Positions 11,990-29,545 of a DNA stretch of 50,882 bases are shown piece after piece. The notes under the pieces were generated by a model. It was given only the letters and a program-made list of their open reading frames with translations. It did no database searches and was not told the DNA's origin. The DNA is from Marinifilaceae bacterium (lineage in GTDB: Bacteria > Bacteroidota > Bacteroidia > Bacteroidales > Marinifilaceae): positions 1 through 50,882 of the forward strand of contig JAGBFU010000049.1 in assembly GCA_017936285.1 (NCBI GenBank). The letters run 5' to 3'. Both the position numbers and the translations under genes were made by a program. The stretch's first letter is position 1; each line of letters opens with the position of its first letter.

Positions 11990-13894
11990 ATGAAGAAAAG
12001 AATGTGGTTGTGGTGTATGATCGCCGCAGTAGGATTGGCATTCAACGTTGCATGTAGCGACGATGATGAGGATGTGACTCCAGAGCCTTCTCAGTCTCAG
12101 CCAGGAGATACTCAAAAGCCTCCTGTAGTTGTTGTAGTTGATACAATGGAGGTATTGACTTCAGAGATTGAGGTTGTTGCAGAGGGTCAGGAGATCTCTT
12201 TCGTAACACGTACAAACGTTGAGTATGAGGTTGCTGCAGATGCAGAGTGGATTACTGTAACAAGCACAGGTCGTGCTTTGACAGCTGATTACACTGTTAC
12301 TGCTACTGTTGCTGCTAATGAGGGTGAGGCTCGTGAGGGTAACATCACTGTTACTTTCAAGGATGAGGCTAACACAGCTAAGACTGTAGTTGTTAAGCAG
12401 GCTGCTTATCAAGCACCTGAGGACTCGCCCGTTCCTCCAGTAGCTGAGTATGAGACAGTTACAGTATCTTTGGAGATTTATCCTGGTGCAGCTGCACAGG
12501 AGGTAATTGTTCCAGAGGATATGGCTGTTGCTCTTGGTGTTGCTGACTTGGCAGCTGCTCTTGCTGACGGTACCGTTACATACGCTGGATTGAACGCAGA
12601 CGGTTCTGTTTACACAGCAGAGGATGGAACTGTTCCTCCATTTACAACCAATGGCCCTTACGGACACTGGTACAACTCTGAGTATAACCCAATCGTTTGG
12701 GCAACTCCAGATCCAAACGGAACAGGTGCTGTTCGTTTCGCATTCCTTGAGGGAGACGGTGTAACTTATAGCCTTGGATTTGACAATTCTGGTGCATTTG
12801 TAGCAGGAGATTCTTATGCAATTGCAGGTTTGTACACAAACGGCGATACAAAGATTAAGTTCGAGGTTGTATTCAACGTAGTTGAGGCCCCTGCAAGCGA
12901 GTTCGTAGCTCCAGAGGCTGACTACACTGTAAATATCGACGTTGTTCAGGATAATGCATGGGGTGCTACACACATCTCATTGGATGGAACAGATGTAACC
13001 GGAGCCGGTGCTTACGCTGATGCTAAAAAGTATGTTACTCCAGTAGTTGATTGGAGCGAGGATATCACCTCTCTAATTGAGGCAGGTCTATCTATCGAGG
13101 ACGGTTCACTTGAGGAGTACCTTGCAGGTGGTGAGGTTCTAATGGGAGCTTACAACAACATGAACGAGTTCCAGGATTGCTATAGCGTTCACTCATCTAA
13201 CACCTTCTTCTGGTTTGCTGCTGAGGGTTCTGCAGAGCCTGCATATGGCGGTATGGCATGTATCGACAACTTGGGAACAGGTTCAGGTGCTGCTGATTTG
13301 ACAGGAACAACATGTTTGATGCCAAACCAGGCTGTTGTTGGCGAGACATATCCTACATACATTGTATTTAAGACAAATAATTCTGATGGTTATTTGGATT
13401 ACGATGCAGAGTTCGTAGTATTGGTAAACATGACAGCTGTTGCAGTTCCTGAGCAAATTGCACTTCCTGAATTTACAGTAGCAGGAACATATGATAAGAG
13501 TTTCGATGTTATTTACGCTGCAGATTACGCAGTTTGTTCAGACTTCTCACTTGAGTCTGAGTGGACTGACATTACAACTCTTATCGGAGCAACTCCAGAT
13601 GTATTCTTGATCAGCGCTCTTGACGAGAATTTGGAGCCAACATTTGTTGACGCATTCACAGGTTTGGGTGGAACATCTCCTGACGGTTGGTTCAATGCAA
13701 ATGGAGCTATCGGTTGGGGAGCAGACGCCCTATACTGCATGAAGCCACAGGCTGATGGAACATTTGCTTCTCATTGTTGTATGCCTGTTGATGCTCCTGC
13801 AAGTGCGACAGCAGTTGCAACATTCCGTTATGCAAGTACAGAGACACAAAAGTGTGTTGACGTCACAATTACAGTTAATATCACTGTTGAGTAA
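11990..13894 (+). CDS. Surface lipoprotein: BACON domain plus DUF4859-like tail modules (expressed copy)
   Basis: The 634-residue protein starts with a lipoprotein signal peptide ending at Cys22 (FNVAC). SDDDED follows, matching the acidic surface-export signal of Bacteroidota lipoproteins, so it probably faces outward. After a Pro/Val linker, residues about 55-137 look like a BACON domain (ADAEWITV near 80, ending VVVKQ). The rest (138-634) seems to be three related beta-rich modules. The first, with GPYGHWYNS near 222, resembles DUF4859; the other two are more diverged. No catalytic motif is seen, so glycan or mucin binding is only a guess. From codon 134 on, the gene is homologous to the inverted cassette at 28004-29466, and the homology starts exactly at a palindromic 19-bp site (12390-12408). 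Codon use suggests high expression. Confidence 0.85.
   Translation: MKKRMWLWCMIAAVGLAFNVACSDDDEDVTPEPSQSQPGDTQKPPVVVVVDTMEVLTSEIEVVAEGQEISFVTRTNVEYEVAADAEWITVTSTGRALTADYTVTATVAANEGEAREGNITVTFKDEANTAKTVVVKQAAYQAPEDSPVPPVAEYETVTVSLEIYPGAAAQEVIVPEDMAVALGVADLAAALADGTVTYAGLNADGSVYTAEDGTVPPFTTNGPYGHWYNSEYNPIVWATPDPNGTGAVRFAFLEGDGVTYSLGFDNSGAFVAGDSYAIAGLYTNGDTKIKFEVVFNVVEAPASEFVAPEADYTVNIDVVQDNAWGATHISLDGTDVTGAGAYADAKKYVTPVVDWSEDITSLIEAGLSIEDGSLEEYLAGGEVLMGAYNNMNEFQDCYSVHSSNTFFWFAAEGSAEPAYGGMACIDNLGTGSGAADLTGTTCLMPNQAVVGETYPTYIVFKTNNSDGYLDYDAEFVVLVNMTAVAVPEQIALPEFTVAGTYDKSFDVIYAADYAVCSDFSLESEWTDITTLIGATPDVFLISALDENLEPTFVDAFTGLGGTSPDGWFNANGAIGWGADALYCMKPQADGTFASHCCMPVDAPASATAVATFRYASTETQKCVDVTITVNITVE
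12390..12423 (+). other. Candidate recombination site, copy A (inside lipoprotein gene)
   Basis: Bases 12390-12408 (TTGTTAAGCAGGCTGCTTA) recur exactly, in inverse orientation, at 29448-29466. After one mismatch a further 14 bases are identical. Arm TTGTTAAG and arm CTTATCAA are near-complements (7 of 8) around the seven-base centre CAGGCTG, the layout expected of a tyrosine-recombinase core site. The site encodes V-V-K-Q-A-A at the end of the BACON domain. Function is inferred. Confidence 0.6.
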
Positions 13895-13924
13895 TCTGCA
13901 TAACAAAGGAGATTTAAAACAACA

Positions 13925-13955
13925 CGAGGGCGGCCATTTGGTCGCCCTCGCTTTA
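13925..13955 (+). terminator. Terminator after the BACON lipoprotein
   Basis: CGAGGGCGGCC pairs with GGTCGCCCTCG around ATTT (13925-13950), giving a strong stem followed by a short T-rich tract. It also lies beyond the end of the convergent arg operon. Confidence 0.75.
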
Positions 13956-13980
13956 TCTGCTAATATTGAAAATAAGTTCA

Positions 13981-15321
13981 TTAAACACTCATTAGTTCAG
14001 ATTCTGCCTTGTGAACGAAGTCAACATCGATTCCAGCTTTGGCACGATTGAATTTAGCTTGAATCTTATCAAGGCACAAATTACCTATACTACCCTCATG
14101 AGTGTGGTGAATAGGACGAACCGCATTCTTGGTATATTCGCCATTCTGAACCTTCATACCGACAATTTTGTACGCCTCGCGGAATGGTACTCCCGCAGCC
14201 ACCATATCATTTACATCCTCAACGGTAAACAGATAATTATATCTCTCATCGCTGAAAATATCGGTATTAACCTCCATTACATTAAAGACATCGCCCGCAA
14301 TGTGCAGACAATCATTTAACTCCTTGAATGCAGGCATAAATATCTCCTTGGTCAACTGCATATCACGGAAATATCCCGATGGCAGATTTCCACAAACCAT
14401 GGACATCTGATATGGAAGCGACTGCAAGCGATTACACTTTGCACGCATCAACTCAAAAATATCGGGATTCTTTTTATGAGGCATAATACTTGATCCTGTG
14501 GTATATCTGTCCGGCAAATGCACAAAACCAAAATTTCCACAAGCATACAGACATATATCATAAGCCATCCTGCCCAAAGTCTGAGCGATGGAACCGACAG
14601 CATACAAAACATTCTTCTCACACTTACCACGTTGCATCTGAGCATAAACAGAGTTATATGCCAAATCGCGGAAACCAAGCAGTTCTGTTGTCATGGTTCT
14701 GTTCAAAGGAACCGATGAACCATAACCCGCTCCTGAACCCAATGGATTGGTATTCACCATATCATATGCAGCCTTCAATTGCAAAATATCATCGGCAAGA
14801 CTCTCGGCATAAGCACTGAACCACATTCCGAATGATGATGGCATTGCTATCTGCAAATGGGTATATCCGGGAAGCATCACATCTTTATACTGCTCAGCCT
14901 TCTGAATCATTATATCGAAAAGCCCCTCAACATTCTGCAGAATGGTAAATATCTCCTCACGGGTATAGAGTTTCAAATCTACCAAGACCTGATCATTACG
15001 TGAACGGCCAGTATGTATCTTCTTGCCAGCCTCGCCATACCACTCTGTAAGCATAAACTCAATCTGCGAGTGAACATCTTCGACACCCTCATCAATAACA
15101 AATGTTCCGTCAAGCACCATACGATATATGCAACGCAACCCCTCTTCAAGCTGCTCCAGCTCAGTGTCATTAATCAACCCTATGCTATGAAGCATCTTTG
15201 CCTGAGCCATATTACCCAGAACATCCGCCTTAGCCAGATAAACATCCAACTCTCTGTCTCTACCAACGGTAAACTCCTCGGTAAATTTATCAATGTCGTA
15301 ACCCTTATCCCAAAGTTTCAT
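13981..15321 (-). CDS. argH: Argininosuccinate lyase
   Basis: ArgH splits argininosuccinate into arginine and fumarate, the last step of arginine synthesis. The 446-residue protein has the fumarase/aspartase superfamily signature GSSIMPHKKNPD near 270-281, with HTGRSRND near 95 and TGYTHLQ-like PGYTHLQIA near 150. It is the last gene of a seven-gene minus-strand operon, six bases after argE. Confidence 0.95.
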   Translation of the reverse strand: MKLWDKGYDIDKFTEEFTVGRDRELDVYLAKADVLGNMAQAKMLHSIGLINDTELEQLEEGLRCIYRMVLDGTFVIDEGVEDVHSQIEFMLTEWYGEAGKKIHTGRSRNDQVLVDLKLYTREEIFTILQNVEGLFDIMIQKAEQYKDVMLPGYTHLQIAMPSSFGMWFSAYAESLADDILQLKAAYDMVNTNPLGSGAGYGSSVPLNRTMTTELLGFRDLAYNSVYAQMQRGKCEKNVLYAVGSIAQTLGRMAYDICLYACGNFGFVHLPDRYTTGSSIMPHKKNPDIFELMRAKCNRLQSLPYQMSMVCGNLPSGYFRDMQLTKEIFMPAFKELNDCLHIAGDVFNVMEVNTDIFSDERYNYLFTVEDVNDMVAAGVPFREAYKIVGMKVQNGEYTKNAVRPIHHTHEGSIGNLCLDKIQAKFNRAKAGIDVDFVHKAESELMSV

Positions 15322-15327
15322 ACTATG

Positions 15328-16377
15328 CTATATTTTCAATCCATCAAGAATCCTGATATACTGCTCAATGGCTTGTTCAATTTCACTTATGTAAATACAT
15401 TCATTTGCGGTATGGCTGCGTGAACTCTGTCCCGGACCAATTTTAAGAGTAGGGAAGTTCATCGCCGTCTGATTCGATGTTGTCGGTGAGCCAAACGGCT
15501 TCAACCCTAACTCTATGCACCTTGCCACCAACGGATGGCTACTATCGATATGCGATGAGTTGTGTTTGAATGAACGGGCCTTTACTTCACATTTTACGTT
15601 TCTCTGCACAATATCGAATATCTCACGATTTGTATAACAATCATTTATTCTGATATCAACCATAAAGGTACACTCCGCAGGGACAATATTGTGCAATGAT
15701 CCTGCCTGAACTCCGGTTACACTCATCTTCACAGCTCCAAGTTCCTCAGACTCCTTGGGGAATTTGTAACTCTTAAACCACTCTATATCGGGCAAGGCCT
15801 CATATATGGCGTTAATACCCTCATTACGAGCTGCATGGCCCGCCTTTCCTGTCGCTTTGCAATCCAAGACCAACAATCCTCGCTCTGCAGTAGCCGGTTG
15901 CATCCCTGTCGGTTCTCCAACAATTGCGGCATCGATTTCGGGCAAGGCCTCAAGGGCTGCCCTAATACCATGCTCTCCCGTCACCTCCTCCTCGGTCGAT
16001 GCCAGCCATATCAGATTGTATGGTTGCTCAACCTTATCAAGATGAAGAAACGTTGCAAGCAGAGAGACAACACTGCCACCGGTATCATTGCTACCCAATC
16101 CGATAATCTTACCATCCTCTTCAATAGGGGTGAAGGGATCGGTTTGCCATCCATCGGCAGGCTTTACTGTATCTATATGACCATCAAGCAATAGTGTCGG
16201 TTTATCACAACCCCAATGTTTGCTCTTAATCCATAAATTATGATGACAACGATTCACTTGATACCCAAGTCTCTCAATATAGCACTGCAACATATCTGCC
16301 ACAGCTCCCTCATCTCTGCTAAGCGAAGGGATGGCAATCATCTGCTTTAAAAGTTCGACAGCCTCAATTGCATTCAT
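15328..16377 (-). CDS. argE: Acyl-ornithine deacylase (M20 peptidase family, ArgE-type)
   Basis: This enzyme removes the N-acyl group to release ornithine (or citrulline, if the acyl group is kept through the transcarbamylase step). The 349-residue M20 metallopeptidase shows DGHIDTVKP near 66-74 and GSNDTGG near 96-102. TEEEVTGEHG near 128 holds the catalytic Glu, and VGEPTG near 155 is also present; these are the di-zinc site residues. It lies between argB and argH with gaps of 3 and 6 bases. Bacteroides fragilis is known to use N-succinyl rather than N-acetyl intermediates, and the sequence alone does not tell which applies here. Confidence 0.87.
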   Translation of the reverse strand: MNAIEAVELLKQMIAIPSLSRDEGAVADMLQCYIERLGYQVNRCHHNLWIKSKHWGCDKPTLLLDGHIDTVKPADGWQTDPFTPIEEDGKIIGLGSNDTGGSVVSLLATFLHLDKVEQPYNLIWLASTEEEVTGEHGIRAALEALPEIDAAIVGEPTGMQPATAERGLLVLDCKATGKAGHAARNEGINAIYEALPDIEWFKSYKFPKESEELGAVKMSVTGVQAGSLHNIVPAECTFMVDIRINDCYTNREIFDIVQRNVKCEVKARSFKHNSSHIDSSHPLVARCIELGLKPFGSPTTSNQTAMNFPTLKIGPGQSSRSHTANECIYISEIEQAIEQYIRILDGLKI

Positions 16378-16380
16378 AGC

Positions 16381-17145
16381 TCACTTCACAATAACGGTAC
16401 CACCATCAAGATGGTCCGGATCGGTCAGACGAACTGCCGACACTCCCGAGTCGATTGTTTTAAAAGCATTCTCAAGTTTCGGGAGCATTCCGGAGTAAAT
16501 TACTCCGCTCTCCTTTAGCTCTGCAAACTGCTCTCGGTTAATTGATGGGATAGCCGAGTTATCATCATCAATATCCATTAGCACTCCTGGCTTGTCGAAA
16601 CAGAAAGTCAACTCCACCTCGTAACGCTCGGCAAGTGCCGATGCTACACCATTGGCAACACTATCCGCATTGGTATTCAACAGTTCACCCTCCTTGCTGA
16701 AGGTTATGGGTGAAAATACCGGCATAATACCCTTCTCAAGAAGCATTGCAACCATATCGCAATTTACGCTCTCGATATCGCCTACAAATCCCCAGTCAAT
16801 ATCCTTCACCGGACGCTTGTGCGACACTACAATACCCATATCGCAACCCGACACTCCGCAAGCATTCACTCCCCGCTTCTGCAACTCAGCCACAACTGTC
16901 TTGTTTGCCAGTCCGGCATACGCCATTACTGTAACCTTCAATGTCTCGGCATCGGTAATTCTGCGTCCCTCGTGCATCTTAACCTCAAGTCCAAGTTTCG
17001 TAGCCAATTGTCCTGCCAGAGTTCCTCCACCATGCACAAGTACGCAATTGGGATAAAATCTGGGTAGCTCATCACAGAGACGGTTTAACAACTCTGTATT
17101 TTCAATCAGTTTACCACCGATTTTTATAACCTTTATCTTCTTCAT
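16381..17145 (-). CDS. argB: N-acylglutamate kinase (acetylglutamate kinase family)
   Basis: ArgB phosphorylates N-acetyl- (or N-succinyl-) glutamate in the second step of arginine synthesis. The 254-residue amino-acid kinase shows IKIGGKLI at its start, the VHGGG nucleotide/substrate loop near 39-43, the GRRITD motif near 60, NADSVAN near 178, and SGVIYSGMLPKLENA near 215. The short length and lack of an N-terminal regulatory helix match the arginine-insensitive ArgB type. Ten bases separate argD from it, and three separate it from argE. Confidence 0.93.
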   Translation of the reverse strand: MKKIKVIKIGGKLIENTELLNRLCDELPRFYPNCVLVHGGGTLAGQLATKLGLEVKMHEGRRITDAETLKVTVMAYAGLANKTVVAELQKRGVNACGVSGCDMGIVVSHKRPVKDIDWGFVGDIESVNCDMVAMLLEKGIMPVFSPITFSKEGELLNTNADSVANGVASALAERYEVELTFCFDKPGVLMDIDDDNSAIPSINREQFAELKESGVIYSGMLPKLENAFKTIDSGVSAVRLTDPDHLDGGTVIVK

Positions 17146-17155
17146 AGACCGGTTT

Positions 17156-18289
17156 TTAGAATCTCTTCATTGTGCCACGGAATGCCTCAAGGAATCTGTC
17201 GCACTCCTCGCGTGTGATTGTCAATGCCGGCAACAGACGCAAAGTATGTGTTCCTGCCATTCCGGTCAATACCCGGTACTCATTCAAAAGCACGCTTCTG
17301 AATTCACTCTGCGGCATTGGCAAATCGATACCAATCATCAATCCGCGTCCTCGCATCTCAACAATACGACTCTCCTTACTCAACTCGCTCATTAGATATG
17401 CTCCCTGTTCAGCAGCATTCTGTACCAGATTCTGGCTATTCATAACCTCCAAGACTGCCAATGCTGCAGCACAAGCCAAATGACTTCCGCCAAATGTTGT
17501 TCCAAGCATACCCTTTTTAGCCTCAATCTCGGGCTTAATCAATACTCCTGCCATTGGGAAACCATTACCAATTCCCTTAGCCATAGTAATCATATCTGGC
17601 TTAACTCCGCTCTGTTGGTGAGCAAAGAACAATCCGGTTCTGCCATATCCTGACTGAATCTCATCAAGGATAAGCATAGTTCCGGTTTCGTTGCACAACT
17701 CGCGCATCTTCAAAAGGTAATCATCATTTGGTACCTGAATACCACCAACTCCCTGAATACCCTCAATAAGCACAGCAGCATAACACTCCTTTCTCAACTC
17801 CTCCTCCAAAACAGCAACATCATTCATAGGGATAAATGTTACCTTCTGAGTTTTATTTACAGGAGCCTGAATTTTAGGATTATCGGTTGCAGCTACAGCC
17901 TGGCTGGTACGTCCGTGGAAAGCCGATTTCATAACCAGTACAGCATCGCGTCCGGTCTCGAACGAGGCGAGTTTCATGGCATTTTCATTGGCCTCCGCAC
18001 CGCTATTGCACAGAAACAACTTATAATCGGGATAACCCGCTGTTTTGCACAGCAACTCAGCCAGTTCCACCTGCAATGGATTCTTTACTGCATTCGAATA
18101 GAAGCCTATCTTATTCAACTGCTCTGAAATTCTCTTCACATAGTGGGGATGAGAGTGACCGATAGAGATAACCGCATGGCCACCATAAAAATCGAAATAC
18201 TCTGTACCATTTGCATCCCACAACAGCGAGCCCTGAGCCTTTACCGGCTCTACATCCAACAATCCGTAAACTTCAAACAGATTTGACAT
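17156..18289 (-). CDS. argD: Acylornithine aminotransferase
   Basis: ArgD is a class III PLP aminotransferase that converts N-acylglutamate semialdehyde to N-acylornithine. The 377-residue protein has FLCNSGAEANENAMK near 90-105, LILDEIQSGYGRTG near 200 with the PLP-contacting Asp, and MAKGIGNGFPMAGV near 235 with the Schiff-base Lys. It sits ten bases from its neighbours on both sides in the operon. Confidence 0.94.
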   Translation of the reverse strand: MSNLFEVYGLLDVEPVKAQGSLLWDANGTEYFDFYGGHAVISIGHSHPHYVKRISEQLNKIGFYSNAVKNPLQVELAELLCKTAGYPDYKLFLCNSGAEANENAMKLASFETGRDAVLVMKSAFHGRTSQAVAATDNPKIQAPVNKTQKVTFIPMNDVAVLEEELRKECYAAVLIEGIQGVGGIQVPNDDYLLKMRELCNETGTMLILDEIQSGYGRTGLFFAHQQSGVKPDMITMAKGIGNGFPMAGVLIKPEIEAKKGMLGTTFGGSHLACAAALAVLEVMNSQNLVQNAAEQGAYLMSELSKESRIVEMRGRGLMIGIDLPMPQSEFRSVLLNEYRVLTGMAGTHTLRLLPALTITREECDRFLEAFRGTMKRF

Positions 18290-18299
18290 ACCTATATAA

Positions 18300-19262
18300 T
18301 TAGAAGTAGTTAGCTTTTAACATTAATCCGCAACACTCATCCAGACCGCACATAAGATTCATATTCTGCACAGCCTGGCCCGATGCTCCCTTCAGCAAAT
18401 TATCAATAGTTGATGTAATAAGCAATTTATCTCCCTCCTTAGCCAGATGTATATAGCAGAAGTTGGTATTTACAACCTGCTTCATATATATTGCCTTATC
18501 ACTCACGCAGACAAACGGGTGATTTGCATAATATTTCTTATACAACTCCTTAATCTCATCGAGCGATGCCTCGGTTCTTACAACTATATCTGAGAATATT
18601 CCACGGCTATGACATCCGCGCACAGGCACGAAAGCAATATCCGGCACTACAGCACCTCCGCTCTTTGCAAGAGTCTCACCAATCTCTGCCAAGTGCTGGT
18701 GTGTAAATATCTTGTAGTTTGACAAATTCGCGGTACGATTACTGAAGTGTGTGTCGGTAGTAGGCTTCTGGCCTGCACCTGTTGAACCTGTAATTCCGAC
18801 AACAGTCACCTGCTCAGGAGCTAACCCTGCAGCAACCAATGGCAATAATCCCAACTCAATCGATGTTGCAAAACATCCCGGGTTTGCAATATGTTTTGCT
18901 TTTTTAATCTCCTCACGGCTAACCTCTGGCAAACCATACACAAAATCGCCTGCATCTTTTGCCAGGCGGAAGTCATTACCCAAATCAATAATCTTCACCT
19001 CCTCGGGAATAGAGTGACCCTCAAGATATGCCTGCGACACTCCATGTCCCATACACAAAAAGAGTATATCAATATCATTGAAATCAATCTCGGAGAAGTG
19101 CAAATCACACCACAAAAGATCGGCATGCACCGAAGAGACGTGCTCACCTGCATGGCTCTCACTGGCAATGTAGCGAATCTCAGCCTCAGGATGACATAAC
19201 AACAAACGGGTCAACTCACCGGCTGTATAACCTGCTCCTCCTGCGATACCTATCTTTACCAT
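18300..19262 (-). CDS. argC: N-acyl-gamma-glutamyl-phosphate reductase
   Basis: ArgC reduces the acylglutamyl phosphate made by ArgB, using NADPH. The 320-residue protein has the Rossmann start GIAGGAGYTAGEL, the catalytic ANPGCFAT near 147-154, GSTGAGQKP near 180, and the GxxCxRGI-type segment (VRGCHSRGIF) near 230. Its first codons overlap the end of argG by seven bases, which points to translational coupling. Confidence 0.95.
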   Translation of the reverse strand: MVKIGIAGGAGYTAGELTRLLLCHPEAEIRYIASESHAGEHVSSVHADLLWCDLHFSEIDFNDIDILFLCMGHGVSQAYLEGHSIPEEVKIIDLGNDFRLAKDAGDFVYGLPEVSREEIKKAKHIANPGCFATSIELGLLPLVAAGLAPEQVTVVGITGSTGAGQKPTTDTHFSNRTANLSNYKIFTHQHLAEIGETLAKSGGAVVPDIAFVPVRGCHSRGIFSDIVVRTEASLDEIKELYKKYYANHPFVCVSDKAIYMKQVVNTNFCYIHLAKEGDKLLITSTIDNLLKGASGQAVQNMNLMCGLDECCGLMLKANYF

Positions 19263-20455
19263 AGATTCTTCTCCTCCTTATTAACTGCATTATATATCTT
19301 CAAAGGCATTCCATAGATATTGGTAAAGCCCTTTACATCATCGGCACTCCATGCACTGTTCTTCTCTCCATACTGAGCGAAATCAGAACTCATCAAATCA
19401 TGCTCAGACTCAATTCCAACCAAATCAAAGTGGTATGGAGACAATCTGATTACAACCTTACCGCTTACATTGCGCTGGCTGCTATCAAGGAACTTCTCTA
19501 TATCACGCATTACCGGCTCCTGATACATAGACTCGTGCATAAACATTCCGTACCATGTACCCATCTGGTCTTTCCAGTACTGCTGCCACTTTGTCAAAGT
19601 ATGTTTCTCCAGCAACTCGTGACTCTTGATAATCAACATTGGAGCAGCGGCCTCGAATGCTACACGACCCTTAATTCCGATAATAGTATCACCAACGTGA
19701 GTATCACGACCAATTGCCCATGCAGCACCTATCTCCTCAATCTTCTGGATAGCCTTAACTCCGCACATAGCCTCGCCATTCACTGAACAGATCTCTCCAT
19801 TCTTATAACCAAGCTCAAGCAACTCCTCGCCCTCATTCTTAAGCTGAGAAGGGAATGCAGAACCCGGAATATTTGTCAATGAGCACAAAGTCTCCTTTCC
19901 GCCAACAGAGGTTCCCCACAAACCCTTATTGATTGAGTATTCCATCTTCTTCCAATCAGAATCTACTCCATGCTGTTTCAAATAGTCAATCTCGTACTCA
20001 CGTGAAAGTCCCATATCGCGGGTTGGGGTAATAATCTTGATATCCGGAGCTACAACCTGGAAAGTCAAATCGAAACGAACCTGGTCATTTCCCGCAGCTG
20101 TACTACCATGAGCAATTGCACTTGCTCCGATACTTCTTGCATAGTTGATGATAGCCAATGCCTGGAATGTTCGCTCAGAACTTACTGAGATTGGATATGT
20201 CTTGTTTCTCAAAACATTTCCAAACACCATATACTTGATACACTTGTCATAATACTCCTGTGAAACATCAAGATTTGCATGGCTCTTTGCTCCCAAAGCG
20301 TAAGCCTTCTCCTCAACGGCCTTAAGCTCCTCCTCGCTGAAGCCACCAGTATTTGCCAATGCTGTATGCACCTCCATGTGCAACTCCTCACTCAAATATT
20401 TTACACAGAACGATGTATCCAAACCACCGCTATATGCCAATACAACTTTTTCCAT
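19256..20455 (-). CDS. argG: Argininosuccinate synthase
   Basis: ArgG joins citrulline and aspartate with ATP. The 399-residue protein begins with the PP-loop VVLAYSGGLDTSF at 4-16 and has AHGSTAAGNDQVRF near 117-130, the ATP/citrulline-binding signature, and GRDTHVGDTIIGIKGR near 250. It is the second gene of the operon, 26 bases after the GNAT gene. The citrulline supplier (transcarbamylase) is not in this window. Confidence 0.96.
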   Translation of the reverse strand: MEKVVLAYSGGLDTSFCVKYLSEELHMEVHTALANTGGFSEEELKAVEEKAYALGAKSHANLDVSQEYYDKCIKYMVFGNVLRNKTYPISVSSERTFQALAIINYARSIGASAIAHGSTAAGNDQVRFDLTFQVVAPDIKIITPTRDMGLSREYEIDYLKQHGVDSDWKKMEYSINKGLWGTSVGGKETLCSLTNIPGSAFPSQLKNEGEELLELGYKNGEICSVNGEAMCGVKAIQKIEEIGAAWAIGRDTHVGDTIIGIKGRVAFEAAAPMLIIKSHELLEKHTLTKWQQYWKDQMGTWYGMFMHESMYQEPVMRDIEKFLDSSQRNVSGKVVIRLSPYHFDLVGIESEHDLMSSDFAQYGEKNSAWSADDVKGFTNIYGMPLKIYNAVNKEEKNLW

Positions 20456-21291: not shown

Positions 21292-21348
21292 TATTTTTAT
21301 TCTGAACATTTTACCCCTACCAATCGTACAAACCGAAAAAAGAAAAAT

Positions 21349-21897
21349 ATGAAGATTGTATATCGAATAACAATGCACCTGGCACTCTTTCTGCTTCTCT
21401 CCTTCATTGCTCAATTTGCAGCGGGAGGCAAGCAGCAAACAAAAAGAGTTATTAAGGGCAATGGCTACACCCTGACACAAAGCCGCAACAGCGAACCATT
21501 TACAAAAGTAGAGGTGAGCGGCAACATAACACTCTTTATTGCTCAGGGAGAGCCCTTGCCCATAAAGATTACTGCCGACGATAATCTGTTTCCCTACATC
21601 ATAACCGATGTCAAAGATGGTACACTATACATTCACTTTGACGATTCTGTGGAGTTGACACACGCTAAAGGTACCTCTGTTCAGATTGCAATACCAACGG
21701 TCGAATACATAGGGGCCGATATGGGAGCAAAGGTTGTGAGCGCCAACGAACTTAACGCAAAAATTTTGAAGATAAACGCATTAAACAATGCAGAAATTAA
21801 AATCAAAGGGGAGGTTGATACCCTATATAGACACTCCGGGTCAGGCGGAATTCTGAATTACAAAAAAATAGTTGCACAACATAGCGAAGATTATTAA
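21349..21897 (+). CDS. Secreted GIN-domain (DUF2807) protein
   Basis: The 182-residue protein has a signal peptide (about 1-26). The single following domain matches the head GIN family of small right-handed beta-helix proteins, with EPFTKVEVSGNITLFIAQG near 48-66, ADDNLFPYIITDVKDGTLYI near 75-95 and short beta-turn repeats after that. Such proteins are periplasmic or surface located in Bacteroidota and have no known enzymatic activity. It is somewhat shorter than common family members (about 210-240). It is divergent from the arg operon and shares that operon's regulatory gap. Confidence 0.75.
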   Translation: MKIVYRITMHLALFLLLSFIAQFAAGGKQQTKRVIKGNGYTLTQSRNSEPFTKVEVSGNITLFIAQGEPLPIKITADDNLFPYIITDVKDGTLYIHFDDSVELTHAKGTSVQIAIPTVEYIGADMGAKVVSANELNAKILKINALNNAEIKIKGEVDTLYRHSGSGGILNYKKIVAQHSEDY

Positions 21898-21909
21898 ATA
21901 TTATGTAAA

Positions 21910-21958
21910 TTGCATCCACTAAAAACGGAGCACAAAGGGCTCTAAATAAAGGATGCAA
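21910..21958 (+). promoter_or_regulatory. Nested hairpin covering the start of the HHH/beta-barrel gene
   Basis: TTGCATCC (21910-21917) pairs exactly with GGATGCAA (21951-21958), and GAGC (21928-21931) pairs with GCTC (21939-21942) inside it. The right outer arm contains ATG 21953, and the second candidate ATG (21959) follows at once. The fold would hide the translation start. Confidence 0.4.
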
Positions 21959-23959
21959 ATGAATAGAATAATAACCTTTACGATATCACTGGCACTGCTT
22001 TTATCAGCACCAAAGCTATATGCACAAGTAGTAAATCAAACAGAAGGAGATTCTGAAGCAGAGTGGGAACGACTGGCTGACGAACTTCTGGAAGAGGGCG
22101 ACGAAACCGATTATGAGAGCTGGTGGCAACGGCTTGAAGAGACAAAACTGAATCCTTTGAATCTTAACACTGTAGGATTCGACTCACTGAAGATGCTCGG
22201 ACTTCTCTCTGAGCGGCAGATTGAGAACATTCTGCAGTTTCGCAAGGACTACGGAGGGTTTATGAACATAAACGAGTTACTCCTGGTAAACGGAATAGGA
22301 CTGAAGCAGTTGGGAGCATTACGACCGCTTCTATACGTCGATTCTCCGGAATACAGACAACGTATCGAGGCTATCAAAAAGGGGAGCAAACACGAGACAC
22401 TCTTCAAAATGAGCGGTAATCTGCCCCAGAACGACTATCTGCGCAACAACCGCTACCCCGGCGCTCCATTCTCGACCATGCTGAAGTACAAGGCCTCGCT
22501 CCATAAAAGGTGGAGCATATCACTTGTTGCCGAGAGCGATGCAGGAGAAAAGTTCTTTACAAACTCACAACGCGGTGGTTTTGACTTCTACTCGGGTCAT
22601 ATCGGCCATAAATCCGACAGGGTCATATCTCAATGGGTATTGGGCGACTTTAGAATGCAGTGGGGCCAAGGCCTGGTTCTATGGCAAGGTTTCACATCGG
22701 GCGGTTCATCGGGAATTTCAGGTATCGAAAAGAGTGCCGGAGGTATCGCCCCATATACCTCTGCAACCGAATATGACTTCTTTCGAGGCGGAGCCATAGC
22801 TATCCAGGCAGCCAAAAACCTCTCGTTTCAACTCTTCGCCTCATATAACAAAATCGACGGCAAGATTATTACCGACACGATTGGCGACGAAGAGGACTAC
22901 ACCTCATCGGTCTATGAAACAGGTTACCACAGAACAACTGTCGAGCGTGCGGGGAAGCGTCAACTGGGCGAGTTAGCATTTGGAGGTGCAGCAATATATA
23001 ACTCTTCTGTAGCGAGGCTTCAACTTCACTATCTACACTACAATTTGAACCCATATCTGGCCCGTGGACAACAGAAATATCAACAATACAACGACACATA
23101 CAGAGACAAAGACGTTTTTGGATTCTCATGGAAAACCTCGATTAAAGGAGCTCTCTTTTTTGGAGAGTTGGCAATCAATGAAAGGGGAGCAACTGCTTTG
23201 GTTACAGGATTAAGACACAACTTCAAACCCTTGAATATCGGAGTGTTGTACCACCGCTATGACAAGAGATATAGCGGTAGTTACGGTGCCGGATATGGGG
23301 CATACAGCAACACATCAAACGAGGAGGGTGTTACGTTGGCTATCGAGGCATCACCATCAAAGCAGTGGCAGATGCGTATGGCAGCAGACTACTACCACTA
23401 CTTCTCTGCCCGCTACAATGCAGAACTCCCGCACAACGGCTTCAAGGCATCGGGCGAGATTATCAATAACAGAGTCAGATGGCAAAACCAACTCTCGGTA
23501 AAATTCACCGCAAAACCCGACCAGGTGGCTCCAAAATTCAAATCACGCAGAAATACTTTGTCAACCAAACTGCAAAGTTCATTCAAAATTGACAAGCGGT
23601 TTGAGGTAAGAGCGCGGGGACAGTTCACCTACACAAACAAAAACCAGCATAAAGAGTATGGTTATATGGTTAGTGCCGACGGTATCATCACGCTATCCGA
23701 CAAATTTAAAACACAAGTAAGAGTTGCATACCACAACACAGACTCATACTACTCACGCATATATCTCTACGAGAACAACGTATTGTATGGCTACTACACT
23801 CCATCATTCCAGGGCGAGGGATGGCGCACATATATAAATCTTAACTATAAGGCATTCAAGGGTTTTACCATCTACGCCAAAGCGGGTGTATCCATACGTC
23901 CTGAAATGGCCCAAACCAAATATGGAGATATTATAGGCCAGATTCGCTATACTTTCTGA
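21953..23959 (+). CDS. Helix-hairpin-helix protein with C-terminal outer-membrane barrel
   Basis: The 668-residue protein has a signal peptide (about 3-24, ending LYAQ). A charged segment rich in Glu/Trp comes next, and then two ComEA-type helix-hairpin-helix units at about 60-125 (LNPLNLNTVGFDSL, then INELLLVNGIG). The remaining 530 residues are made of alternating aromatic/polar strands ending in a terminal Phe (IGQIRYTF), as in an outer-membrane beta-barrel. The combination is common in Bacteroidales. Its role is unknown; the HHH units hint at DNA contact at the cell surface, which is speculation. ATG 21959 is an equally good start. Confidence 0.78.
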   Translation: MQMNRIITFTISLALLLSAPKLYAQVVNQTEGDSEAEWERLADELLEEGDETDYESWWQRLEETKLNPLNLNTVGFDSLKMLGLLSERQIENILQFRKDYGGFMNINELLLVNGIGLKQLGALRPLLYVDSPEYRQRIEAIKKGSKHETLFKMSGNLPQNDYLRNNRYPGAPFSTMLKYKASLHKRWSISLVAESDAGEKFFTNSQRGGFDFYSGHIGHKSDRVISQWVLGDFRMQWGQGLVLWQGFTSGGSSGISGIEKSAGGIAPYTSATEYDFFRGGAIAIQAAKNLSFQLFASYNKIDGKIITDTIGDEEDYTSSVYETGYHRTTVERAGKRQLGELAFGGAAIYNSSVARLQLHYLHYNLNPYLARGQQKYQQYNDTYRDKDVFGFSWKTSIKGALFFGELAINERGATALVTGLRHNFKPLNIGVLYHRYDKRYSGSYGAGYGAYSNTSNEEGVTLAIEASPSKQWQMRMAADYYHYFSARYNAELPHNGFKASGEIINNRVRWQNQLSVKFTAKPDQVAPKFKSRRNTLSTKLQSSFKIDKRFEVRARGQFTYTNKNQHKEYGYMVSADGIITLSDKFKTQVRVAYHNTDSYYSRIYLYENNVLYGYYTPSFQGEGWRTYINLNYKAFKGFTIYAKAGVSIRPEMAQTKYGDIIGQIRYTF

Positions 23960-23968
23960 TTTTTTTTA

Positions 23969-23976
23969 TATTTTCG
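23969..23976 (+). promoter_or_regulatory. -7 box TATTTTCG of purE
   Basis: This is a one-mismatch TAnnTTTG box 30 bases before ATG 24006, right after the preceding stop codon. Confidence 0.55.
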
Positions 23977-24005
23977 CAAATTAGAAAAATCAGAAGTTGA
24001 AAAAT

Positions 24006-24512
24006 ATGACACCGAAAGTAAGTATCATTATGGGTAGTACGTCAGACCTTCCAATTATGGAAAAAGCGTGCAAGGTATTGAATGATTTTAAAATCCCATT
24101 CGAGGTGAATGCGCTTTCTGCACACAGAACACCTGCCGAAGTTGAGGAGTTTGCACATGGAGCTGCAGCTCGGGGGATTGAGGTTATAATTGCAGGAGCA
24201 GGCATGGCTGCACACTTAGCAGGAGTTATCGCAGCAATGACACCGCTTCCTGTTATCGGTGTACCCATCAAATCATCGTTCGAGGGTATGGATGCATTAC
24301 TTGCAATGGTACAGATGCCTCCGGGCATTCCTGTGGCGACTGTGGCTGTAAACGGAGCTATGAATGCCGGAATTTTGGCTGCACAAATATTAGCCACCGG
24401 AGATCAGACTCTTAAAGAAGAGATTGTTAGATTCAAAGAGGGGTTGAAGAAGAAAATCGTTGATGCCAACAAAGAGCTTTCAGAGATAAAATACGAGTAC
24501 AAGACTAATTAA
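24006..24512 (+). CDS. purE: N5-carboxyaminoimidazole ribonucleotide mutase
   Basis: PurE class I rearranges N5-CAIR to CAIR in purine synthesis. The 168-residue protein has IIMGSTSDLP near 8-17, SAHRTP near 41-46, the GAGMAAHLAGVIA loop near 68-80, and MPPGIPVATV near 107. The ATG at 24006 is chosen over the upstream TTG at 23997, which is nearer the expected transcription start. The purK partner is not adjacent. Confidence 0.95.
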   Translation: MTPKVSIIMGSTSDLPIMEKACKVLNDFKIPFEVNALSAHRTPAEVEEFAHGAAARGIEVIIAGAGMAAHLAGVIAAMTPLPVIGVPIKSSFEGMDALLAMVQMPPGIPVATVAVNGAMNAGILAAQILATGDQTLKEEIVRFKEGLKKKIVDANKELSEIKYEYKTN

Positions 24513-24544
24513 TTAAGGGTGTAGCATTTCTCCCCCAATTTAAT

Positions 24545-24552
24545 TATCTTTG
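24545..24552 (+). promoter_or_regulatory. -7 box TATCTTTG of hpt
   Basis: This is an exact TAnnTTTG box 19 bases before the hpt ATG, which gives a leader of only about 12-14 bases. Confidence 0.65.
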
Positions 24553-24571
24553 TGCCTCCAAATCAAGTGCA

Positions 24572-25117
24572 ATGGAAAGTATAACCCTACACGGTAAAAC
24601 ATTTAAGTTGCTTGCATCGCATAGCGAGCTATGTAAGGCTGTTGAGATATGTGCAGAGAAAATATCTGCAGATTTTCACTCCAAAGAGCCTCTCTTTATC
24701 AGCGTATTGAATGGCTCATTCATGTTTACGGCAGAACTCATGAAAAGAATTGATGTACCGAAATGCGAATTATGCTTCGTTAAGGTATCATCATACCAGG
24801 ATATGGAGTCAACAGGAATCATCTCGCATGTAATTGGCTTGAATCGTAACATTGAAGGTCGTGAGGTTGTCATTGTGGAGGACATGGTTGACTCCGGTTG
24901 CTCTATGTACAATTTGGTAAACAAATTCAAATCCGAGGGAGCAAAGAGTGTTAAGATTGCTTCTATGTTCTACAAGCCTGATGCTCTTAAATACCCGGTT
25001 GTTATAGACTATCCCGGTATGGCACTTGAGAATGATTTTGTAGTTGGATTCGGATTGGATTACAACGAATATGGCAGACAGTTGCCTGATCTGTATGTAT
25101 TGGATAACGACATTTAA
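24572..25117 (+). CDS. hpt: Hypoxanthine phosphoribosyltransferase
   Basis: Hpt salvages hypoxanthine and guanine with PRPP to IMP and GMP. The 181-residue protein shows LNGSFMF near 47-53, the KVSSYQDMESTG flexible loop near 71-82, and the PRPP-binding VVIVEDMVDSGCSM near 98-111, followed by DFVVGFGLDYNEYGRQLP. It is three bases before obgE, so the two are co-transcribed. Confidence 0.95.
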   Translation: MESITLHGKTFKLLASHSELCKAVEICAEKISADFHSKEPLFISVLNGSFMFTAELMKRIDVPKCELCFVKVSSYQDMESTGIISHVIGLNRNIEGREVVIVEDMVDSGCSMYNLVNKFKSEGAKSVKIASMFYKPDALKYPVVIDYPGMALENDFVVGFGLDYNEYGRQLPDLYVLDNDI

Positions 25118-25120
25118 TTT

Positions 25121-26107
25121 ATGGCATCGACAAATTTTGTAGATTACGTAAAGATATATTGCAGGAGCGGAGCCGGAGGTGCCGGTTCTGCTCATTTGCA
25201 TAGAGATAACTGGACAGCCAAAGGTGGCCCCGATGGTGGTGACGGAGGACGAGGAGGACATATCTATATCCGCGGAAATCGCAACTTCTGGACTCTGATT
25301 CACCTGAAATACGCTCGTCACATCTTTGCCGGCGATGGAGAAAATGGCAGCAAATGCCGAAGCACCGGAGCCAATGGTGAAGACAAGATTATTGAGGTAC
25401 CATTGGGGACTGTAGCCCGTGATGCTGAGACCGGTGAGAAGATCTGCGAAGTTACCAAAGATGGCGAGACCGTTATCATGGTAAAAGGAGGTCGCGGAGG
25501 ATTGGGTAACTGGAACTTTAAATCTCCAACTCTTCAAACGCCCCGATTTGCCCAGCCTGGTGAACCTCGCGTTGAGAGAACTGTAATCCTAGAGTTGAAG
25601 GTGCTGGCAGATGTAGGCTTGGTAGGATTCCCCAATGCAGGTAAATCCACACTTCTCTCCGTAGTTTCTGCTGCAAAGCCCGAAATTGCCGACTATCCAT
25701 TTACAACCCTGGTTCCAAACTTAGGAATTGTAACCTATCGTGACAATCGATCATTTGTAATGGCAGATATTCCCGGAATTATCGAGGGAGCTCATGAGGG
25801 TAAGGGATTGGGACTGCGATTCCTGCGACACATTGAGAGGAACTCGGCTCTGCTATTCATGATTCCTGCTGACAGCAAAAATATAAAAGAGGAGTACGAA
25901 ATTCTGCTAAATGAGCTAAGACAATATAATCCGGAATTGCTTGACAAAAAGAGAATTTTGGCCGTTACCAAGAGCGACTTCCTGGATCGTGAACTTATTG
26001 AGGAGATTGAGCAGGATATGCCAAATATCCCGTATGTCTTTATCTCATCTGTTATGCAGACAGGTATTACAGAACTTAAAGACTTGATTTGGAATGCCCT
26101 AAATTAG
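25121..26107 (+). CDS. obgE: Obg family GTPase
   Basis: Obg binds the 50S subunit and links ribosome maturation to growth and the stringent response. The 328-residue protein has the Gly-rich Obg fold at 1-157 ([12 protein letters not shown] near 35-46). The G domain follows, with GFPNAGKST near 169-177, [16 protein letters not shown] near 215-230 and TKSD near 288. It ends right after the G domain, without the C-terminal OCT domain and shorter than many homologues. The Asp of the usual NKxD is kept, but the first residue is Thr (TKSD). Confidence 0.94.
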
Positions 26108-26114
26108 ATTAATA

Positions 26115-27035
26115 ATGCCATTAAACTTACCTAACGGACTACCGGCAATTCAGGCTCTCAAAGAGGAGAATATCTTTGTTTTCGACAAAGACAGAGCCTC
26201 TACACAGGACATCAGACCTCTTAAGATTGTGGTACTGAACCTTATGCCTATCAAGATAACCACCGAAACGGACTTGATTCGTCTGCTTTCGAACACTCCG
26301 TTACAGCTTGAAATTACCTTTATGAAGGTAAAGAGCCACACTCCAAAGAATACCCCCATAGAGCATATGAAGATGTTCTATAAAGATTTTGAAATTCTTA
26401 AGGAGCAACGTTTCGATGGTATGATTATTACAGGTGCTCCGGTTGAACACATCAATTTCGAGGAGGTAAGTTATTGGGAAGAGATACAGGAGATATTTAA
26501 CTGGAGCAGAACGCACGTAACATCTACTCTCTATATCTGCTGGGCTGCACAGGCAGGACTTTACCATTTTTACAATGTACCCAAATATCCTCTCTCTGAA
26601 AAGATGTTTGGTATATTCCCACACAGAGTAGTCACCTCCGAAAGGTTGCCAATATTCCGAGGATTTGATGATCGCTTCTATGTACCGCACAGCAGGCACA
26701 CAGAGATCCGAAAAGAGGACATTCTGAAGCATAAAGAGCTTACCCTCCTGGCAGAATCGGACGAGAGCGGAGTATATATGGTAATGGCTCGCAATGGTCG
26801 TGAATTCTTTATTACCGGCCACTCTGAGTATGCACCAAACACATTGGATAATGAATACAAACGCGATTTAGGAAAGGGACTTCCCATAAAAATGCCCAAA
26901 AACTACTATCGCGACGATAACCCTGAGAAAGGGATTGAGGTTTTGTGGCGAGGACATGCTAATCTGATGTTCTCGAACTGGTTGAACTATTACGTTTACC
27001 AAACAACACCATACAATATTGACGAAATTAAATAA
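26115..27035 (+). CDS. metA: Homoserine O-acetyltransferase (MetA family)
   Basis: MetA acylates homoserine as the first committed step to methionine. The 306-residue protein carries the catalytic Cys142 (YICWAAQAG), GHSEYAP near 235 with the active-site His and Glu, and GAPVEHINFEEV with Glu111. In this family Glu111 goes with acetyl-CoA and Gly111 (as in E. coli) with succinyl-CoA, so acetyl transfer is predicted despite the common name homoserine succinyltransferase. It lies seven bases after obgE and 20 before proC. Confidence 0.93.
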   Translation: MPLNLPNGLPAIQALKEENIFVFDKDRASTQDIRPLKIVVLNLMPIKITTETDLIRLLSNTPLQLEITFMKVKSHTPKNTPIEHMKMFYKDFEILKEQRFDGMIITGAPVEHINFEEVSYWEEIQEIFNWSRTHVTSTLYICWAAQAGLYHFYNVPKYPLSEKMFGIFPHRVVTSERLPIFRGFDDRFYVPHSRHTEIRKEDILKHKELTLLAESDESGVYMVMARNGREFFITGHSEYAPNTLDNEYKRDLGKGLPIKMPKNYYRDDNPEKGIEVLWRGHANLMFSNWLNYYVYQTTPYNIDEIK

Positions 27036-27055
27036 TCAATTTATAATACAAAGGT

Positions 27056-27844
27056 ATGAAAGTTTTAGTTATCGGTGCCGGAAATATTGGAGGTGCCATT
27101 GCATGCGGAATTTACAACAAGGGAGTTGTAAAGCCAGAGGAGCTTACCTGTTCCGATTTGATTGAACAGAATTTGATTAACCTTCAGGCTAAATGTCCCG
27201 GTATCAACGTTACTCAGGACAATATCGAGGCTATCAAGCAAAACGACATTATTATCGTAGCTGTTAAGCCATGGGTTATCGAGCCTGTATTGGGAAGCAT
27301 TAAAGAGGCTTTAAATCCAGAGAAGCACCTATTGCTGTCTATCGTAGCAGGAGTTAATTTCGAGAAGTTGGACAAGTACCTTGGAGGTATGAATATCCCT
27401 ACATTCCGTGTTATTCCAAACATTGCTATTGAGGTTGGTAGCAGTATGACATTTGTTTCTGCAGATAAAGCTACAAAGGAGCAACAGGATTTGGTTGTTG
27501 AGATGTTCGATAAGTTGGGTAAGGCATACTTGATTAAAGAGAATTTAATGAGTGCCGGAACCGCTGTTGCATCAAGTGGAATTGCATTTGCACTCAGATA
27601 TATCCGTGCCGCCTCAGAGGGAGGAGTTGAGCTCGGCTTCTATCCTGAGCAGGCTAAAGAGATTGTTATGATGACAGCACAGGGAGCCGTAGATATTCTT
27701 CGCGCTCACAATAGTAACCCTGAACAGGAGATTGATAAGGTTACAACTCCAGGAGGTATTACCATCCGCGGATTGAATACCATGGAGATGGCCGGATTTA
27801 CAAACTCAGTTATCAAGGGTATTCTTGCAAGTAAGTCAAGTTAG
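27056..27844 (+). CDS. proC: Pyrroline-5-carboxylate reductase
   Basis: ProC reduces pyrroline-5-carboxylate to proline. The 262-residue protein has the Rossmann start VLVIGAGNIGGAIA, AVKPWV near 71, and the C-terminal family signature TTPGGITIRGLNTMEMAG near 235-252. It is probably the last gene of the hpt-obgE-metA-proC run, closed by a good terminator. Confidence 0.95.
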   Translation: MKVLVIGAGNIGGAIACGIYNKGVVKPEELTCSDLIEQNLINLQAKCPGINVTQDNIEAIKQNDIIIVAVKPWVIEPVLGSIKEALNPEKHLLLSIVAGVNFEKLDKYLGGMNIPTFRVIPNIAIEVGSSMTFVSADKATKEQQDLVVEMFDKLGKAYLIKENLMSAGTAVASSGIAFALRYIRAASEGGVELGFYPEQAKEIVMMTAQGAVDILRAHNSNPEQEIDKVTTPGGITIRGLNTMEMAGFTNSVIKGILASKSS

Positions 27845-27899: not shown

Positions 27900-27943
27900 A
27901 TTGTAACACTTACCAATGCGAAAAACTCTTCAGTAGTATATAA

Positions 27944-27974
27944 TAAAAAAGGGGCGATCCATCCGGATCACCCC
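27944..27974 (-). terminator. Terminator of the inverted lipoprotein cassette
   Basis: On the minus strand GGGGTGATCC pairs with GGATCGCCCC (one mismatch) around GGAT, followed by a T-run (the A-run at 27944-27950 on the plus strand). It lies 30 bases past the cassette's stop, so the cassette keeps its own 3' end. Confidence 0.75.
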
Positions 27975-28003
27975 ATATATCAGTTGAATAATTTCAATTG
28001 AAA

Positions 28004-29545
28004 TTAAGCCTCTGGAGCTGTCAAAGTTACTGTAATCTTAACGTCTACAGCCTTCAACTCTGTATCGTTGCAATAACGGAATGTTACAGCAGCATCAACT
28101 GCACCCTCATTGATAGCAGCGCAATAGCCGAATGTACCATCTGTATTTGGCTTCAAGCAGAACATAACTGCCTGAGAACCCCAACCTGCAGCACCGTTAG
28201 CAGCAAACCAACCGTCTGTTACTGACCACTCCTGGAATGCCTCCTCCAAGTTGTCGTCAAGGTAGCTCATCAATACCTGAGAAACCTCTCCACCAATCAA
28301 TGTCTGGATGTCAGCAATAATATCCTCGTTAGAGAACATTGGATCAGGAGTTGTATAAGAATCTGGGTTAACAGTTGCGTATGTCTTCTCGTATGTCTCT
28401 ACTACTGTGTACTCCTTCAATGGTTGTTTCTCTGGAGCAGCAACTGCAGTACCCTTAACCTCTACTACGTACTCAGCGCTCTCGTCAGCTGCCTTGAATA
28501 CGATGTAAGCTGAATATGTTGTTCCGATCTGTGCATCGGTAGGGAACATACAAGTTGTTCCATACAACTGTGGATTACCATCGTGGTAACCAATGTTATC
28601 AATACAGAATACAGAATTCTGACCCCAACCTACAGCAACTCCTTCTACTGTATACCAGAAGAAGTAGTTAGAACCGTGCTCCTCATAAGCATCTCTGAAG
28701 TACTGGTTGTTATCAGCATCAACACCATAAGCACCAAGAAGAACATCTCCTCCGAATAGAGCATCCTCCAAAGCACCCTCATCAAGACCCAACTTAGCCT
28801 CAATCTCGCCTGTAATATCTACAGAAACGTCCTGGATTGTTGTCATATACTTATCAGGATCTGAATAAGCTCCCCAGTAACCAAACTCAGTTCCGTCCAA
28901 AGCGATATATGTAGCACCATAACCATTATCCTGAGCAACCTCTACCTCAAGAACATAGTCAGCAACAGGAGCCTCACCTACGTTGATAGCAACCTCGAAC
29001 TTAACCTTTGTATCACCATTTGAATACAAACCAGCAATTGCATAAGTTGTTCCAGGTGTCAAAGAAGAAGAGTTGTCATAACCAAGGTTATATGTTACAC
29101 CGTCTCCCTCAAGGTAAGCTAAACGTACTGCACCGGTCTCGTTTGGATCTGGAGTTCCCCAAATGATTGGGTTACCCTCTGAGTTATACCAGTGTCCGTA
29201 AGGGCCATTGGTTGTAAATGGAGGAACAGTTCCATCCTCTGCTGTGTAAACAGAACCATCTGCGTTCAAACCAGCGTATGTAACTGTACCGTCAGCAAGA
29301 GCAGCTGCCAAATCAGCAACACCAAGCTTAGCAGCAACCTCCTCTGCAGATACTGTTGTTCCTGCAGCACCAGGAACGATGTCCAAGGTTACGGTTACAG
29401 TCTCGTACTCTGTTACAGGAGGAACTGGAGTATCCTCAGGTGCTTGGTAAGCAGCCTGCTTAACAATTTTACATAAAGACTTTTGTAAATTATATTCTGC
29501 TAACAAATGTAGGAGATGCATATTGATTGTGTTAAAAATAATCAA
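28004..29545 (-). CDS. Headless, probably silent tail cassette paralogous to the BACON lipoprotein
   Basis: The open frame is intact, but only its part downstream of 29466 matches the lipoprotein at 11990. The match runs from VKQAAYQAPED to the end, with DUF4859-like modules (GPYGHWYNSEG in the first). The signal peptide, lipobox and BACON domain are missing. The about 26 residues upstream of the junction come from AT-rich DNA and look like chance extension. A TACATTTG box (29504-29511, minus strand) could start a transcript, but the first ATG after it (29473) is followed at once by a stop, so no good translation start exists. Identity with the other copy is very high in places (71 bp exact, 29187-29257). 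It is best read as a storage cassette that could be joined to the 5' part of the other gene by inversion; a degraded partial duplicate is the alternative. Confidence 0.72.
   Translation of the reverse strand: MIIFNTINMHLLHLLAEYNLQKSLCKIVKQAAYQAPEDTPVPPVTEYETVTVTLDIVPGAAGTTVSAEEVAAKLGVADLAAALADGTVTYAGLNADGSVYTAEDGTVPPFTTNGPYGHWYNSEGNPIIWGTPDPNETGAVRLAYLEGDGVTYNLGYDNSSSLTPGTTYAIAGLYSNGDTKVKFEVAINVGEAPVADYVLEVEVAQDNGYGATYIALDGTEFGYWGAYSDPDKYMTTIQDVSVDITGEIEAKLGLDEGALEDALFGGDVLLGAYGVDADNNQYFRDAYEEHGSNYFFWYTVEGVAVGWGQNSVFCIDNIGYHDGNPQLYGTTCMFPTDAQIGTTYSAYIVFKAADESAEYVVEVKGTAVAAPEKQPLKEYTVVETYEKTYATVNPDSYTTPDPMFSNEDIIADIQTLIGGEVSQVLMSYLDDNLEEAFQEWSVTDGWFAANGAAGWGSQAVMFCLKPNTDGTFGYCAAINEGAVDAAVTFRYCNDTELKAVDVKITVTLTAPEA
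29433..29466 (-). other. Candidate recombination site, copy B (head of silent cassette)
   Basis: This is the inverse copy of the site at 12390-12423: 19 identical bases, one mismatch, then 14 identical bases. Homology between the two genes stops exactly at its outer edge (29466). The recombinase gene ends 86 bases further out. Between them are two more small inverted repeats: TTTACA/TGTAAA (29468-29489) and ATTGATT/AATCAAT (about 29522-29546). Confidence 0.6.

Follow-up and report, generated by a model that had tools for sequence, protein, structure and literature searches.

How could a lipoprotein obtain a new C-terminal part when its spare tail lies 17 kb away, behind a block of core genes? 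The question is raised by a contig of 50,882 nucleotides from a Marinifilaceae bacterium (JAGBFU010000049.1, assembly GCA_017936285.1), analysed as a whole and hereafter called the window. It carries a lipoprotein gene with a constant head and a three-module tail, a headless cassette encoding a similar tail on the opposite strand and, next to the cassette, a tyrosine recombinase gene (Table 1). We consider it probable that these parts form a split system, in which the recombinase recombines a site of 14–19 bp within the lipoprotein gene with an inverted copy at the headless cassette 17 kb away, giving the head a new tail. This reading is carried by the parts themselves and their common site, by a frame that stays open over the new joint, by the recurrence of these parts in a second species and by tails that have changed partners.

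One site at the start of two tails

That the lipoprotein and the cassette share DNA from one 19-bp run onwards, as the original prediction had claimed, is borne out at both sites: homology starts at the site, the longest exact run common to sites A and B is 19 bp, the first 500 nt on its 3' side are 83% identical between the two genes, and the lipoprotein head gives no DNA match to the cassette flank at E 1e-4. The lipoprotein contains a BACON domain (PF13004, 39.8 bits against the Pfam cut-off of 25), and the cassette has no BACON match, in line with its description as headless; DUF4859 (PF16151) scores above its cut-off in both genes (Table 1). The signal peptide and lipobox, and the lack of a signal peptide in the cassette, were read by eye without a prediction tool. 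A Foldseek search for the fold of the tails gave a TM score of 0.09–0.15 over the query for the best 50 rows, and a second fold comparison was informative for residues 48–298 only, chiefly the BACON domain.

A 26-bp pattern spanning the site has two occurrences in the window, at 12392–12417 (+) and 29439–29464 (−), against 0 expected from 100 shuffles. In the genome to which the window belongs (86 contigs, 81.89% complete), a third exact copy of GTTAAGCAGGCTGCTTA is absent, the best other place having 2 mismatches, and the inner 14-mer recurs with a single mismatch on two other contigs. AAGCAGGCTGCTTA is present without mismatch in all five copies of the site, two in the window and three in the related genome G001. 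The predicted architecture of 8-bp arms around a 7-bp centre describes the window's two copies and does not extend to all five copies in the two species, where 14 bp are constant, including the 13-bp palindrome AAGCAG-G-CTGCTT. Of the 60 bases preceding the site, the two heads have 43 in common, and the remaining nine pairs 11–21. The frames do remain in phase through the site, as had been proposed: a scripted turn of 12401–29455 leaves the lipoprotein frame open, now 620 residues long (634 before), and also leaves an open frame at copy B.

As first described, the recombinase gene stops 86 bp short of copy B, with its frame end at 29552; it reads towards the cassette. The protein matches the SAM-like domain PF13102 (35.6 bits against a cut-off of 22.3) and no NCBIfam model. 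Among the best 120 of 420 protein matches, nine clusters of 361–371 aa with 64–99% identity head the list, and the other 111 are longer (495–620 aa) and 50–59% identical. In an alignment of 14 recombinases the five long ones have additional N- and C-terminal parts that are not in the nine short ones, and Arg155, Lys185, Arg274, His297 and Tyr307 are invariant, residues which we take to be catalytic from the Arg-Lys-His-Arg-His-Tyr motif. In the family survey a recombinase match at E 1e-3 was found in 31 of 56 genomes, the best one outside the genus being only 31% identical. A scan of genome_contigs that required exact peptide words returned two loci, one contig matching contig C28 of G001 (L073) and one match of 26%; viral_contigs gave nothing with the recombinase protein and nothing with one site pattern, and no relative among solved structures was found at E 0.01.

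Tails with changed partners

The genus search took in two genomes, the window's own and that of the sister species G001 (83% complete). There, the lipoprotein gene lies between fba and argH, the single recombinase match is 69–70% identical to the window's enzyme and has a headless cassette, Y, directly behind it, and a second headless cassette, X, stands directly behind proC. The recombinase gene is thus adjacent to a site in both species, at 86 bp in the window and directly adjoining in G001. Over 361 aligned codons the two recombinase genes show 134 synonymous and 111 amino-acid differences (dN 0.23; dS was not computable). Neither species' head matches the DNA 5' of any cassette in the window or G001.

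It is very improbable that the cassette is merely a broken duplicate of the lipoprotein gene and that their shared start just marks where the duplication happened to break off. The lack of a signal peptide and head is what such a remnant would show; against it, the headless frames are open for ~484–491 codons in 3/3 cassettes of the two species, each from the same site, which led us to set this explanation aside. In addition, nine of the 12 proteins newly read from a public search with the cassette are headless, with KQAA following after 9–20 residues; two others start inside the tail, and P0148 has its own BACON domain, with SQAA replacing KQAA.

Exchange between the species is visible as DNA at the site. 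The heads of the two lipoprotein genes are 68% identical over 425 nt, up to the site, where the alignment ends; homology running past the site in relatives, which the original prediction had named as evidence against it, is therefore not what the heads display. In the first 510 nt of their tails, the two lipoprotein genes give no match at E 1e-4. The tail of the window lipoprotein instead matches cassette Y of G001, at 73% over 516 nt and at 72.5% over the 477 nt that follow, and modules 2–3 of the window cassette match the tail of the G001 lipoprotein at 72.6% over 901 nt.

The same pattern appears in public proteins, of which the head query (region 1–142) gave 20 and the cassette query 16, and which provide evidence at the level of protein rather than of DNA joints. 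The heads of P0002 and P0005 agree at 121 of 122 aligned residues across the six windows that precede the site, and module 1, behind it, is 34% identical. Conversely, P0006, which has a head, and the headless P0144 are identical from the site onward (170/170 residues). Among headless proteins, P0144 and P0152 have 15 of 16 flank residues in common and then 33% identity, and P0142 carries the flank of the window's cassette (20/20) followed by a module 1 that is 94% identical to the window lipoprotein tail, versus 77% to the window cassette. An exchange of tails at the shared site, between the two species and among public sequences, is therefore well supported.

In P0007, P0008 and P0009 a BACON part 61–67% identical to the head and a KQAA/KQAS motif are shortly followed by a very different C-terminal part, in which a zinc-protease-like HELxH motif was seen by eye. 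An unlinked relative on contig C8 of G001 (L037, 4800–8570) has a BACON head, a tail like that of cassette Y and extra C-terminal domains; a stop lies inside its head frame and the site is not kept, with AAACAGGTCGCATA at the corresponding place and a protein motif that also differs (KQVAY). Lipoproteins with the same MKKRMWLWCL signal peptide and no exact copy of the site are found on contig C73 of the window's genome, G000 (L039, 240–1529), and on contig C10 of G001 (L042, 5012–8338).

Possible inversion of the interval and other routes of exchange

In the mechanism we propose, the head would bring the signal peptide, lipobox and BACON domain, and perhaps its own promoter, to a protein presumably exposed at the cell surface. 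Each tail would bring its own stop and a terminator-like hairpin (by eye), and the headless cassette would be silent where it stands. A TAnnTTTG word upstream of the lipoprotein gene may be its −7 box, going by the Bacteroidota promoter consensus; another of these frequent words lies at 29511 (−), and we claim no promoter for the cassette. The recombinase would pair sites A and B and cut there and, the sites being inverted, the outcome would be an inversion of 17,054 bp between the site centres, after which the lipoprotein frame would stay open at the shorter length given above. Such switching would be reversible and might be frequent. The interval to be turned holds 14 whole frames, whose completeness and names agree with the earlier description (Table 1).

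Several observations weigh against this mechanism, at least in its simplest form. The window and G001 agree in the order and orientation of all 14 genes (2/2 genomes); a check of the related genome for the opposite orientation of 12.4–29.5 kb found none, G001 being like the window, and neither a flipped interval nor a mixed population is seen in the two genomes, the window contig running through both sites. Under inversion between A and B only, the tails stay tied to the interval ends, and a new tail under the head therefore needs a turned interval; because the tails differ between the species while the interval orientation is the same, this inversion alone is insufficient. The DNA comparison also yields no clean reciprocal swap: module 2 of the window cassette matches G001 cassette X as well (73% over 535 nt), and its module 1 resembles the window lipoprotein (83%) and G001 cassette Y (72%) and is unlike the G001 lipoprotein. 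As for the enzyme, the catalytic domain PF00589 reaches 18.6 bits, under the Pfam cut-off of 27.1, and position 271, which we take for the histidine of HxxR, is Gln in the nine short recombinases and in P0038, and His in four of the five long ones. Codon preference accounts for part of the site identity; the chance of five identical sites arising from codon use is 6.3e-4 to 1.9e-6 on the assumption of independent copies, which these copies are not. Finally, deletion of the interval would be possible as well, given the near-palindromic site and the direct orientation of cassette X in G001.

What stands of the claim that an inversion swaps the tails is the exchange at the site, the recombinase kept beside a cassette in G001 and the layout of head and spare tail; the part concerning the 17-kb turn is not matched by the orientation of the interval, the same in both genomes. 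The inversion must then be paired with a further type of exchange, unless the exchange takes a different route.

Mosaic tails point to one such second process. P0147 and the G001 lipoprotein differ in module 1 and then have 305 of 311 residues in common, P0149 and P0152 are near-identical up to the last module, and P0142 resembles the lipoprotein in module 1 and the cassette in later modules. Such mosaics at the level of modules, a further point against site-specific inversion as the only process, suggest that homologous recombination acts in addition. One could go further and ascribe everything to homologous recombination or gene conversion of similar tails, with import from other strains, the shared start being the edge of homology and the recombinase an unrelated neighbour. 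The mosaic breakpoints at module borders and the constant interval orientation would fit this explanation, which we nevertheless regard as unlikely: first modules unrelated in sequence (the G001 lipoprotein against X and Y beyond the first 24–40 nt) have been swapped at their left edge, next to flanks that are likewise unrelated; all five copies in the two species start at the same 14 bp; and the recombinase has kept its place beside a cassette despite drift to 69–70% identity.

Alternatively, the recombinase could use the site to take up or exchange cassettes between DNA molecules, such as circles or imported DNA, without turning the 17-kb interval. This would account for tails that differ between the species with no turned interval, for two cassettes in G001 against one in the window, and for the many tail types among public proteins. 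In the copies examined, however, a site stands at one cassette end only and none behind the tails, which leaves no small circle to be excised, and we rate this route as improbable.

We return, then, to recombination between the lipoprotein site and its inverted copy as the preferred reading, and tentatively propose an extended form of it, in which we place less confidence than in its core. In this split shufflon, the recombinase would turn the 17-kb block of arginine, purine, methionine and proline genes with obgE to supply a new tail, and homologous recombination would turn the block back and shuffle modules, giving two layers of variation. Judging from the mosaic tails, the interval could regain its usual orientation by homologous recombination between the similar tails, which are inverted, and their first parts would be left exchanged. 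In G001, a joint between X and the head would delete the interval together with obgE, because X is direct to the head; only Y, or a turned X, could serve the head there.

The G001 contigs end behind cassettes Y and X, and we had considered these ends as a sign of flipping. The candidate was dropped, as the ends (L036 9833–9947 and L038 1–124) are repeats that also occur at other G001 contig ends. By eye, they interrupt the terminator loops as insertion sequences would; no transposase was identified in these repeats. The C28 end repeat has five other full-length copies, of which three start at base 1–2 and one ends at the last base (one contig end unchecked), and three of the five other copies of the C13 end repeat start at contig base 1 (two contig ends unchecked).

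Table 1. Parts of the proposed split system and of the interval it encloses, in window coordinates
Feature	Coordinates	Strand	Remarks
Possible −7 box of lipoprotein promoter (TAnnTTTG)	11862..11869	+	Weak; 59 such words in the window, both strands
Lipoprotein gene	11990–13894	+	634 aa
Constant head: signal peptide with lipobox (NVAC-SDDDE) and BACON domain	11990..12394	+	
Site A, within the lipoprotein gene (codons ...V KQAAY)	12390..12408	+	Exact 19-bp run with copy B; 14-mer common to five copies in two species
Tail A: three modules, DUF4859 in module 1	12409..13894	+	PF16151, 25.9 bits (cut-off 22.6); matches G001 cassette Y
Terminator-like hairpin 3' of tail A	13926..13949	+	By eye
Interval of 14 genes	13981..27844		argH, M20 peptidase, amino-acid kinase, argD-type aminotransferase, argC, argG, GNAT, GIN-domain protein, HHH protein, purE, hpt, obgE, metA, proC
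Terminator-like hairpin 3' of the cassette	27951..27974	−	By eye
Headless tail cassette (tail B)	28004..29464	−	Open frame; PF16151, 46.7 bits (cut-off 22.6); without BACON
Site B, inverted copy of site A	29448..29466	−	Exact 19-bp run
Headless flank, in-frame ATG 20 codons 5' of KQAA	29467..29551	−	Matches neither head; protein P0141 starts there
Tyrosine recombinase	29552..30658	−	368 aa; PF13102, 35.6 bits; orthologue adjoins cassette Y in G001

Known systems and neighbouring genes

By analogy, the system resembles a shufflon of C-terminal tails and recalls the invertible loci of Bacteroides, differing from both in its split, long-range layout. The R64 shufflon (rci, pilV tails), as outlined in PMC11852207, likewise joins a constant 5' part to alternative C-terminal parts through in-frame sites, with a tyrosine recombinase gene beside the cassettes; its segments follow the constant part in a contiguous row, and its asymmetric sfx site consists of a 12-bp left arm, a 7-bp core and a 12-bp right arm, unlike the near-palindromic common part of 14 bp found here. 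The contiguous array is not found here either: the window has a single cassette 17 kb off behind 14 genes, and the three sites of G001 are likewise spread out. With the Tsr invertible loci of the Bacteroidales (B. fragilis, B. thetaiotaomicron; SusC/SusD shufflons; PMC11852207, PMC3090145), the system has in common a tyrosine recombinase gene next to the site. The best-known of those loci turn promoters or promoter-near segments, whereas here the head would keep its promoter, and sites A and B both lie inside coding frames instead of forming inverted repeats around a promoter.

In hsdS-type inversions the partners are generally close neighbours, with no long stretch of unrelated genes between them, and vpma of Mycoplasma agalactiae and sap of Campylobacter fetus set one expression site against silent genes. 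The hsdS-type systems are alike, in the accounts of PMC3090145 and PMC4948785, in that inverted repeats within two opposed partial genes swap coding parts, with a tyrosine integrase adjacent; they concern a different gene family. In vpma and sap, too, DNA inversion switches surface proteins (as presented in PMC11852207 and PMC11868660), with other hosts and enzymes, and vpma is described in the latter as adding a promoter, not a new tail. A literature search over titles and abstract openings found no description of the present arrangement, which is weak evidence of absence, most subscription journals being outside its coverage.

If the proposed system is real, variation of the surface can act at a distance: a spare tail could serve a constant head from the far side of a block of household genes. 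Scans for short invertible segments would miss it, and surface protein choice and the direction of core genes would be coupled. Similar systems could be sought as two distant, inverted, in-frame sites, one in a gene with a signal peptide and the other starting a headless frame beside a recombinase. More speculatively, variable tails under a constant head are candidate contacts with phages, host or glycans.

Between the two species, 13 of the 14 interval proteins are 75–98% identical, and the GIN-domain protein (window 21349–21897) 35%; the head stands at 55% and the recombinase at 69%. Beyond the recombinase gene, the window encodes a further lipoprotein (30742–32652), whose first 268 residues include a Gly/Arg-rich stretch and which also has a part resembling arabinan endo-arabinosidase, all its NCBIfam scores lying below the cut-offs. 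This arabinosidase-like neighbour, outside the system, is 69% identical between the window and G001 over the aligned part, so fast change occurs beyond the system as well.

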